From NCBI RefSeq assembly GCF_004022215.1, contig NZ_SAUZ01000012.1, forward strand, positions 1-64,000: 64,000 bases of DNA, written 5' to 3'. Shown here in pieces: positions 38,290 through 43,870 of this stretch. Under the pieces are notes generated by a model. That model was not told the DNA's origin, ran no database searches, and saw only the letters and a program-made list of their open reading frames with translations. Origin of the DNA: Paenirhodobacter populi. Its GTDB lineage: Bacteria; Pseudomonadota; Alphaproteobacteria; Rhodobacterales; Rhodobacteraceae. The position numbers were made by a program, and so were the translations under genes. Within the stretch, counting starts at the first letter, position 1, and every line of letters starts with the position of its first letter.

Positions 38290-38299
38290 GTGCACAAAT
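38290..38299 (-). promoter_or_regulatory. Candidate nic operator upstream of nicE
   Basis: ATTTGTGCAC read on the minus strand, 103 bases upstream of the nicE start. Identical to the core found upstream of the MarR gene and nearly so before nicA. Confidence 0.45.
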
Positions 38300-38301
38300 A
38301 T

Positions 38302-38991
38302 TCAGCTCGCGCGCATCCCGGCCGCCAAAAAGGCGACGAGTTCTTCAAGCATCCGGTCCTTGCCCAGATCGACGACATGGCCTTCGGTGATGTCGCCCAA
38401 TCGGCCCAGATCGTTGAGCATGAACATGTAGGTGCCGACGAGGAAGGAAAAGCGGATGCTGACCCTGTCGCGGGGAATACCGGGCAGGCAGCGGCTGAGC
38501 ACCTCCACGTAGCGATGCACCGAGGAATCATAGACCTCGCGGCGCAGGCGCAGCGCGTGTTCCTCGGGTTCGGAATGCAGGCGCGCCTGCAGCCGCACGA
38601 AGGCGGCGCCGTTCGCACCGCTGTATTTCATCGCCCATTGCGGCAGCAGATAGGCATGCAGCACCTGTTCGACCGTGGGCGCGGGTGTAGCCATGAGGAG
38701 TTCATCAAGAAATTCATGCCGACGCGCCGAGATCAGCCCCCCGCGGCGGCGGAACACCTCGTCGAACAGTTCTTCCTTGGAACCAAAATAGTAGCGGATC
38801 AGCGCCTGATTGACACCCGCCCGCTCGGCGATGTCGCGGGTGCGCGCGCCGGCGAAGCCGGTCTCGGCAAAGGCCAATTCGGCCTGATCCAGAATCAAAT
38901 CGCGCAGATCACCGGCATCCTTCGGGCGGCCGGGCCGGCGGCGCGGCTCTGCCAACGGATCCTGAGGGGGCTTTGCAGGCGTATCGGTCAT
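38302..38991 (-). CDS. TetR-family transcriptional regulator
   Basis: 229 residues. TetR-type HTH at about 27-75 (LAFAETGFAGARTRDIAERA, VNQALIRYYFGSKEELFDEV), followed by a helical ligand domain of variable sequence. Encoded between nicE and the MarR gene on the same strand. In P. putida a TetR protein (NicS) controls nicAB, so this may be a positional analogue, but similarity to NicS itself cannot be judged here. Confidence 0.88.
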   Translation of the reverse strand: MTDTPAKPPQDPLAEPRRRPGRPKDAGDLRDLILDQAELAFAETGFAGARTRDIAERAGVNQALIRYYFGSKEELFDEVFRRRGGLISARRHEFLDELLMATPAPTVEQVLHAYLLPQWAMKYSGANGAAFVRLQARLHSEPEEHALRLRREVYDSSVHRYVEVLSRCLPGIPRDRVSIRFSFLVGTYMFMLNDLGRLGDITEGHVVDLGKDRMLEELVAFLAAGMRAS

Positions 38992-39028
38992 GGAGGCTCG
39001 GGCCTTCTTGTGGGCGGTCCCGGCTGGA

Positions 39029-43200: not shown

Positions 43201-43745
43201 CCGCAGCCGGAGCCCGGGGCTGGACCCGCGATACGCTTTACGCCTATCTGCGCGATGGTCATGCCCCCGGCATCGCCAGCGCGGCAGGCCCGATGGTCGA
43301 GGTCATCCACAGCGCCCAAGGGCTGCCCGATGCCGATATCGCGGCGATGGCCACCTATCTTGCCACGCTGGCGGAACCCGGTCCGGTGGCGGCGCCCGTT
43401 TCGGCGCCGGTCGCGACGCCGCCGGTGGGCGAAGGCGCGCGCCTGTTCCGTGCTGCCTGCGCAAGCTGCCATGAGCCGGGCCTCGCCGATGGCTTCACCG
43501 CCGCGCAGGTGCCGCTTGCGAAATCCATGGTGCTGCGGGCGCCGGAATCGGGACCGTTGCGCACCCTGCTGCGCGAAGGGATCGCCGCGCCGCTCGATCT
43601 GCCGCTGCGGGACATGCCGAGCTTTGAGGGCCAGTTCAGCCCGGCCCAGACCGATGAGCTGATCACCTGGCTGCGGGCGCGCTATGTGCCGGATCTGCCC
43701 GCCTGGAGTGACACGCCAGCGGCCGAAGTTGCGGCGGGCCGCTGA
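40266..43745 (+). CDS. nicB: Nicotinate dehydrogenase, molybdopterin + tri-haem cytochrome c subunit
   Basis: 1159 residues, close to P. putida NicB (about 1190). Residues 1-710 or so are the Moco-binding domains, with the active-site Glu680 in GVGESAAVP. A hydrophobic segment near 740-760 may anchor the chain in the membrane. Three c-type haem sites follow: CTVCH (Cys797), CSACH (Cys943) and CASCH (Cys1065). It hydroxylates nicotinate at C6 with water and feeds electrons through the haems to the respiratory chain. Translationally coupled to nicA. No separate cytochrome gene is needed. Confidence 0.94.
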   Translation: MPEPVHEPAPGMISVRDIVKGVEATFVQIDETGTATAFNGHVDLGTGISTALSQIVAEELDLTLDQVQVVLGDTRLTPDQGPTIASETIQVAAHPLRRAAAQLRLFLIGRAAQMLNADAARLEVHAGVVRSETDEITYGALVAGLDVVMRLDPDVPVKDPSDYRIVGRRTGRIDLPDKVTGRFGYIQDVRVPGMLHGHVVRPPYAGRDSGPFIGHSLIGYDEAAVRDMPGFVAVVREADFLGVVAQTEHQARAIAEALPVHWRQPPNLPPMGDLRHAIKTFPSTPRVLDTTGDFDRAIADCGIRLERHYVWPYHEHGSIGPSCAVADWNGGAPILWSGTQNPHMLRADMAQLLGLPPEVIDVRRLQAAGCYGRNCADDVCGDALLMARAVGVPVRVQLTREQEHLWEPKGAAQLMEVSGGIAADGDIGAYRLDSWYPSNRGPNLALLLTGLITPEPRPADMGDRTIIPPYRIPNKHITVHDMAPIVRAAWMRGVSALPNTFAHESFVDELAFEAGEDPVAFRLRHLDDPRVRELVLRTAEEGGWAERTGPRMRREGRMAYGQGFAYATYVHGTFPGTAAASSAWVCDVAVDTETGEVTLSRVFVGQDQGLVINPDGVLAQIRGNVIQTASRTLREEVTFDSIAPLPKSWAGYPIQTFDEVPEIATMLVERPGDPALGVGESAAVPAAAAIANAIFDATGVRLREAPFTPEKIRSALAAQQGGVALPPPPDGAPGRLARLFGRGRLAAAFGAIGGALTLGAVSLPIHSVIPASRAPAAETFSAETIERGRQVFAAGDCTVCHTAPGGLPNTGGRAMETPFGTVYSTNLTADPETGLGNWSYAAFDRAMRHGISRDGKNLYPVFPYTAFAKIDEGDMMALYAYLQTLTPISAPTPQAAMLAPVNLRAVNAGWNLLFHDARPFSPDPARSDDWNRGRYLVEGAGHCSACHSPRNALGAEKGGAAALTGAMVDGWWAPPLAGAAAGARGWTRDTLYAYLRDGHAPGIASAAGPMVEVIHSAQGLPDADIAAMATYLATLAEPGPVAAPVSAPVATPPVGEGARLFRAACASCHEPGLADGFTAAQVPLAKSMVLRAPESGPLRTLLREGIAAPLDLPLRDMPSFEGQFSPAQTDELITWLRARYVPDLPAWSDTPAAEVAAGR

Positions 43746-43857
43746 TCATGGACGGATCACTTTGCAGGCAATCCGCATCACATGCCGCTCTGCCTGCTCG
43801 TTTTTTGTTCGTGTACATGCAAAATATGCTGCTGAAATGCATTTTTCAATGCGCGAT

Positions 43858-43870
43858 ATCATTTGTGTGC
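43858..43870 (+). promoter_or_regulatory. Candidate nic operator upstream of nicC
   Basis: ATCATTTGTGTGC, 13 bases identical to the site before nicA, 34 bases upstream of the nicC start. Just upstream the AT-rich nicB-nicC gap also holds the palindrome AAATGCATTT (43835-43844). nicC therefore appears to have its own regulated promoter. Confidence 0.5.

Follow-up and report, generated by a model that had tools for sequence, protein, structure and literature searches.

Two predicted operator codes, of a MarR-family and a TetR-family regulator, at the nicotinate genes of Paenirhodobacter populi

Introduction

NicS, a regulator of nicotinate catabolism in Pseudomonas putida, is TetR-like. According to PMC10269826, NicS serves nicAB in strain KT2440, and the MarR repressor NicR serves the nicC and nicX operons. 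In Bordetella the MarR-family protein BpsR (PDB 6PCO and 6PCP) represses nicC and nicE and is released from DNA by 6-hydroxynicotinate, and NicR is without the ligand residues of BpsR, as stated in PMC6837509. An operator for these regulators is not given among the matches listed in the open-access PMC literature or in the portions of text covered, and one may be in print in other papers on Bordetella or Pseudomonas.

The present analysis concerns 64,000 nucleotides of contig NZ_SAUZ01000012.1 of Paenirhodobacter populi, the whole of which is referred to as the window, and for which a preliminary description had proposed that four short strings at nic promoters are the operators of one regulator. 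This is only partly right, and the finding is larger than first described, since it comprises two predicted operator codes, two candidate MarR sites missed earlier and one transporter. With a probability of roughly 0.78 we take a 22-bp palindrome, motif M, to be the MarR operator of nicA, nicC and the transporter, and an unrelated palindrome, motif T, to be a TetR operator mainly for nicE-D-X-F.

Genes of the locus

The genes discussed here are the following:

37438 to 38187, minus strand: nicE-like gene (Pfam Amdase), first in the nicE-D-X-F run (37438-34882)
38302 to 38991, minus strand: TetR-family regulator, predicted reader of motif T (Pfam TetR_C_30, 3.9e-30; TetR_N, 7.6e-15)
39029 to 39463, minus strand: MarR-family regulator, predicted reader of motif M (Pfam MarR_2, 6.3e-13; Pfam MarR also above cut-off)
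39770 to 40273, plus strand: nicA-like (2Fe-2S) subunit (Pfam Fer2_2)
40266 to 43745, plus strand: nicB, after nicA (MoCoBD and cytochrome c domains)
43905 to 45053, plus strand: nicC-like FAD monooxygenase (Pfam FAD_binding_3), query for the locus searches
46562 to 51257, minus strand: ABC-transporter operon with a binding protein (49929-51257), two permeases and two ATPases (Pfam Peripla_BP_6, BPD_transp_2, ABC_tran)

The nic gene names are ones which we presume from homology and gene order, and the nicX protein gave no match in Pfam. The genes are arranged as previously inferred, with nicF, nicX, nicD, nicE, tetR and marR on the minus strand and nicA, nicB and nicC on the plus strand. The best NCBIfam match of the TetR protein is PsrA, but at 83.3 bits this lies under the cut-off of 300 and the protein is not placed in that family. 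The MarR protein has the MarR winged-helix domain (Pfam MarR_2 and MarR) of the broad class of MarR-type repressors of nicotinate catabolism and, as expected of that class, its gene lies among nic genes whose promoters carry palindromes; the host genome holds one MarR of this type at E 1e-30.

Like BpsR, to which it is related within the same family (phmmer to 6PCP, E 5.6e-24), the window MarR protein is encoded with the same kind of target genes, and it keeps the tyrosine, the arginine and a histidine of the ligand residues Tyr15, His23, Arg26 and His32 (3/4). However, His23 is a phenylalanine here, which sets the protein apart from BpsR proper by its residues, and the recognition helix reads MDAATTKGV as opposed to IDQATVRGV in BpsR. 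It should also be mentioned that some BpsR-like proteins of nic clusters are likewise without His23 and have a tyrosine there. The closest solved structure by sequence is that of 2NNN, a MarR-like protein of P. aeruginosa (phmmer E 1.3e-34), the recognition helix of which is of the same type as that of the window protein.

Loci, matrices and counts

A NicC search of the reference-genome collection gave 57 loci, in most of which the order nicE, nicD, nicX, nicF is kept as mapped by tblastn. Motifs were sought by expectation-maximisation, with starting points taken at random from the data, in 269 gaps between nic genes. Seven loci taken as near-duplicates (L041, L042, L046, L049, L053, L059 and L062) were omitted from discovery and from the first scoring of the window, and these included all genome-contig loci of one Rhizobium group (L049, L053, L059 and L062), which are without M of at least 12 bits at nicC. 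Window scores are from matrices trained with the window held out. Conservation was counted as M or T of at least 12 bits within 260 bp of the tblastn start, with the window and plasmid loci included; two fragments (L067, L068), an unrelated locus (L070) and a lone second nicC (L039) were excluded from every count. A tree of 42 NicC proteins, used together with the T and tetR comparison, furthermore omitted L017, L021, L051 and L056, which have neither nicE nor nicD in the locus, as well as the loci with a divergent MarR and the near-duplicates except L049. A class-wide search for further clusters found them in 2 of 385 genomes, both already in the set, and among 16 further stretches L134, L135, L136 and L146 match genomes already in the set and were not counted as new. 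One locus, assigned to Nocardioides marinus (L058), is a nic cluster of the alphaproteobacterial kind and possibly represents contamination.

Motif M at nicA, nicC and the transporter

Direct reading and a scan of the host genome (4.78 Mb, 91 contigs) find all four strings where they had been reported: ATTTGTGCAC lies at 38290-38299 (minus strand) and 39597-39606 (plus strand), with TTGTGCACAA inside the latter copy, and ATCATTTGTGTGC starts at 39669 before nicA and at 43858 before nicC. The strings are rare in the genome, where ATTTGTGCAC occurs 3 times, 2 of them within these nic gaps, ATTTGTGNNC occurs 26 times, 4 of them within these gaps, and ATTTGTGTGC occurs twice, at nicA and nicC only. 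All four belong to a longer palindrome of 22 bp, ATTTGTTTGTATACAAACAAAT, which was found de novo with a log-likelihood ratio of 1066 as compared with 124-149 in four shuffles, and which was obtained again from 80 gaps without the window. The string shared by nicA and nicC is identical at both places, as had been noted, but makes up only part of this palindrome, and the nicC site reads ATTTGTGTGCTAATGAT, so that the '(TG)CAC' of the originally named motif misdescribes it. The M sites of the window, with no strand assigned, are:

43857 to 43878: predicted M operator, nicC proximal, TATCATTTGTGTGCTAATGATA, 21.0 bits; contains the earlier nicC string
43803 to 43824: predicted M operator, the distal one at nicC, TTTTGTTCGTGTACATGCAAAA, 22.0 bits, highest M score of the window; missed earlier
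39668 to 39689: predicted M operator, nicA, AATCATTTGTGTGCACTCAATT, 19.9 bits; contains the earlier nicA string
51314 to 51335: predicted M operator, before the ABC-transporter operon, TTTCATTTTCATACATACAAAT, 21.1 bits; missed earlier
39593 to 39614: weak M-like site, marR, CATCATTTGTGCACAAGTGACG, 5.9 bits; the earlier marR string
38282 to 38303: weak M-like site, end of tetR, 5.4 bits; the earlier nicE string

Across loci M is present at nicA in 45/46 cases, namely in 32/32 loci with tetR and in 13/14 without, and the sole miss is L014, the nicA of which is of another type (55% identical). At nicC it is found in 47 of the 52 loci of this MarR type (32/37 with tetR and 15/15 without), the five tetR-containing loci that lack it all being from Rhizobium; with near-duplicates omitted the count for loci with tetR becomes 24/24, and we use 32/37, for which nothing of that kind was dropped. 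In the held-out loci, which are the window and five plasmid loci (L170-L174), M occurs at nicA in 6/6 and at nicC in 5/6.

The proximal nicC site ends 26 bp upstream of the start codon and fits a block of the promoter or of early transcription; a scan for sigma-70-like promoters over 38180-51480 gave 3 matches where 2.6 are expected and did not single out the nicC promoter. The weak site at 39593-39614 is a possible candidate for self-control of marR, and a second site in the equivalent gap is seen in L024, L032 and L172 as well.

The preliminary description would have been contradicted by a motif equally frequent in unrelated places, and the answer differs between the full motif and its core. 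A degenerate M pattern with at most one mismatch, which is circular to the extent that it was drawn partly from the window's own sites, matches 15 places in the genome versus 7 in the reversed control, and these places are the six M sites of the window, two near a LacI gene (C3:66.7-66.9 kb) and seven elsewhere. The short core TTTGTNNACAAA, on the other hand, has 19 genome-wide occurrences when one mismatch is tolerated versus 24 for the reversed control, and since it is not enriched the short word alone is no evidence.

The LacI gene on contig C3 is separated from a second ABC-transporter operon, which ends in a phosphorylase-like gene, by a gap holding a 15.6-bit M-like site (L086:6748-6769, about 66.75 kb). 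A gap of like arrangement in Sagittula (L172:17653) has a 19.4-bit M site beside the nic cluster, and in Rhizobium acidisoli (L173) the LacI and ABC genes are present with no M there.

A second palindrome at nicE

The gaps between nicE and tetR and between tetR and marR contain an unrelated palindrome, AATTATTCANNTGAATAATT (motif T), which was re-derived without the window from 32 gaps. Two predicted sites, again with no strand assigned, are found in the window:

38219 to 38240: predicted T operator, before nicE, AATTTAATCACCTGAATAATTG, 19.3 bits
51374 to 51395: predicted T operator, before the ABC-transporter operon, TTATTCATCGTGCGATTAATTA, 21.6 bits

The nicE site is the sole exact match of the T pattern in the genome; two mismatches allow two places, one of them at the transporter, and up to three mismatches give 22 matches versus 14 in the control. 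Among 3971 coding stretches from the loci, each 260 bp long, the highest T score is 6.2 bits.

At nicE, T is present in 31/31 loci with tetR versus 1/13 without. If nicD is taken where nicE is missing, the presence of T agrees with that of tetR in 41 of 42 loci (28/28 and 13/14), the exception being L024. Since most loci with tetR served to build T and only six were held out, the actual test lies in the loci without tetR and in these six, all of which (6/6) have T at nicE or, in L171, which is without nicE, at nicD. The palindrome is thus tied to the tetR gene as expected of a TetR operator, but on the NicC tree tetR changes only 5 times, with four or five of the five independent pairs in agreement, and the association is therefore not significant by itself. 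T is found upstream of tetR itself in 21/33 loci and is absent there in the window. From the predicted operator, the TetR protein most likely serves nicE.

Two loci are of note in this regard. L024, a MAG, has a 24-bit T-like site at nicE and no TetR was found in it, which may mean a relic or a TetR gene missing from the assembly. In L020 (genome G299), which was counted among the loci with tetR, the tetR frame has three stops, perhaps from recent loss or from sequence errors, and nicE still has M as well as an 18-bit T.

That one regulator binds all four of the initially noted sites, nicE included, with nothing else needed, is the alternative that survives best, and we nevertheless regard it as improbable. 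The four sites do have a common core, the two weak ones score above all 3971 coding stretches (best M score 4.5 bits), and M of at least 12 bits does occur at nicE in 18/31 loci with tetR and in 11/13 without, so that MarR may share nicE in many species. However, the copy in question is weak in the window and is unusually placed, 94 bp upstream of nicE where M sites of at least 12 bits elsewhere are 31-64 bp upstream, two non-nic places in the 64 kb (56896-56917 with 11.4 bits and 9525-9546 with 6.1 bits) outscore both weak copies, and the strong site at nicE belongs to a different conserved palindrome whose presence goes with tetR. Site by site, the idea of one regulator's operators has good support at nicA and nicC, is plausible at marR and has poor support at nicE, and two codes, with T as the main nicE element, remain the preferred reading. 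The 11.4-bit site lies about 110 bp upstream of an open reading frame at 57027-58802 (plus strand).

A displacement of MarR by TetR at nicE finds no support on the NicC tree, where the presence of M at nicE does not go with that of tetR, and a take-over of nicE by TetR is suggested by single lineages only, for example the window and the rhizobia.

The gap at 51258-51478 contains a strong M and a strong T site, and both also precede the equivalent gene in two Celeribacter loci (L044 and L046). Upstream of the ABC binding-protein gene each motif is found in 3 of the 6 loci having this gene, the positives being the window and the same two Celeribacter loci. The transporter is a probable part of the nicotinate regulon.

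The protein that reads motif M

It had been left open whether MarR or TetR is the regulator, and for this motif the co-occurrence counts favour MarR. A MarR scoring E 1e-30 or better is held by 39 of 47 genomes and a TetR at E 1e-30 by 25, and all 39 genomes with the close MarR carry M, 38 of them at nicC and L049 only at nicA. Of the eight genomes without it, seven have no M at nic promoters, and the eighth, the MAG L056, has M and no MarR was found in it. Among the shared families listed, with queries from five loci, MarR is furthermore the only regulator common to most of 37 loci.

A reading of M by the TetR protein might seem natural given that tetR shares the cluster in the window as in many other loci, but we reject it as very improbable, since M is kept at nicC in 14/14 genomes with the close MarR in which no TetR reaches E 1e-30, since it is a different palindrome whose presence goes with tetR, and since divergent-MarR clusters carry a palindrome that resembles M without being identical to it. 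A regulator of the GntR/FadR family, such as the GntR-FCD protein encoded at 29471-30178 in the window, deserves mention as the GTATAC core of M fits the consensus NyGTM-N0-1-KACNy of the FadR subfamily, as given in PMC4494728; at E 1e-5, however, none of the 57 other loci contains a relative of this protein, no GntR is among the shared families listed from the five query loci, and with no conserved GntR gene beside the sites a reader of this kind is hardly credible and was rejected. Chance or the base composition of AT-rich gaps deserves almost no credence, for although the short core is not enriched and the two weak sites could be of such origin (in simulated sequence of gap composition M sites of at least 5.4 bits arise about 120 times per Mb, or about 0.1 times in 800 bp of gaps), sites of at least 19.9 bits arise about 0.25 times per Mb, or about 0.0002 times in 800 bp, where four are found, and the sites are conserved across loci. 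MarR thus stands as the likely reader of M.

Two MarR types and their palindromes

Seven loci with a divergent MarR have no M of at least 12 bits at nic promoters, and no TetR was found in them either; the same absence of M of at least 12 bits at nic genes holds for 12 further clusters with a divergent MarR (34-44% identical), of which L143 has a single M site, at a distance of about 5 kb from the nic genes. These divergent, BpsR-like clusters carry a sister palindrome, ATATAGCGTATACGCTATAT, with the GTATAC core of M, and AGCGTATACGCT is the palindromic word predicted for the BpsR-like MarR group. The sister palindrome was derived from 72 stretches of 18 loci, which included the gaps of divergent clusters and of five earlier loci, with a log-likelihood ratio of 194 versus 51 in one shuffle. 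The sister matrix is weaker, the best of 3000 coding stretches reaching 15.1, and the palindrome exceeds this value in five loci outside training (L014, L015, L175, L176 and L177).

The two types differ in the flanks of the operator, which are TTT/AAA in M and AGC/GCT in the sister palindrome, and likewise in the recognition helix, which is MDAAT(T/I)KGV in the M group as opposed to (I/V)D(Q/P)(A/G)T(I/V)RG(V/I) in the divergent group. In L036, L040 and L057 the helix reads MDQSTINGV and M is still present.

In the betaproteobacterium Corticibacter populi (L014) a nicC-nicE-D-X-F set of alpha type comes with a MarR and M sites of its own. Two M sites lie before the alpha-type nicC, and sister sites surround the other MarR and its nicA, and this genome appears to carry both versions of MarR and operator. 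The nicC of Lampropedia cohaerens (L015) is similar (80%), but the divergent MarR is the only one there and M is absent; sister sites occur in this locus, none of them directly before nicC. On a plasmid of Mesorhizobium sp. AR07 (L175), the nic genes of which go with a divergent MarR and sister sites, a 27.9-bit M precedes an extracellular binding-protein gene (16665-16686).

Twelve marR genes found with the 2NNN sequence (L178-L189) lie away from nicC, several of them beside ABC transporters or molybdenum hydroxylases, and two (L178 and L179) near nic clusters of the divergent type. M of at least 12 bits is present in 9/12 of these stretches, which suggests that M is tied to this type of MarR and not just to nic; unlike in the window, the stretches are without nicC, and M is within 200 bp of marR in only 3/12. 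They are perhaps members of a wider regulator family with a common M operator.

Proposed regulation and implications

From the computed motifs, their places, their conservation and their co-occurrence with regulator genes we infer the binding, repression and inducer steps that follow. Through its predicted operators MarR most likely controls nicA and nicC as well as the transporter, and perhaps also its own gene. Without inducer, a MarR dimer (39029-39463) would sit on M at nicA, on the two nicC sites and at the ABC-transporter promoter and block transcription there, until the first product builds up; an intermediate of the pathway, by analogy with BpsR probably 6-hydroxynicotinate, would then release it, the inducer being a guess since only three of the four ligand residues of BpsR are kept (His23 is Phe). 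The nicE-D-X-F run would be governed mainly by the TetR-family protein through T at 38219-38240, and the transporter promoter, with both M and T, may answer to both regulators.

Such an arrangement resembles that of NicR and NicS, likened here by description only, in that a MarR repressor and a second repressor divide the nic genes. However, the division of labour of P. putida is not reproduced as far as motifs tell, since the window has M before nicA and nicC and T before nicE. BpsR likewise differs in that the main nicE element of the window is T.

As a tentative joint reading, to which we give somewhat less than even odds, nicotinate genes may be controlled by exchangeable repressor pairs, with MarR regulators split into two recognition types that share the GTATAC core and have changed flanks and helix together, a TetR that in one lineage took control of the lower pathway (nicE-D-X-F) by a code of its own, a gate at the uptake operon and a wiring unlike that of P. 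putida. If this is true, both repressors would meet at the uptake operon, which would then be a two-signal gate. The analysis provides exact candidate operators for the two regulators, the pathway of which uses up a precursor of NAD, as well as a predicted operator for the BpsR-like group. It may furthermore offer a small natural example in which a repressor and the word that it reads have changed jointly, and the Corticibacter populi genome appears to carry both versions.
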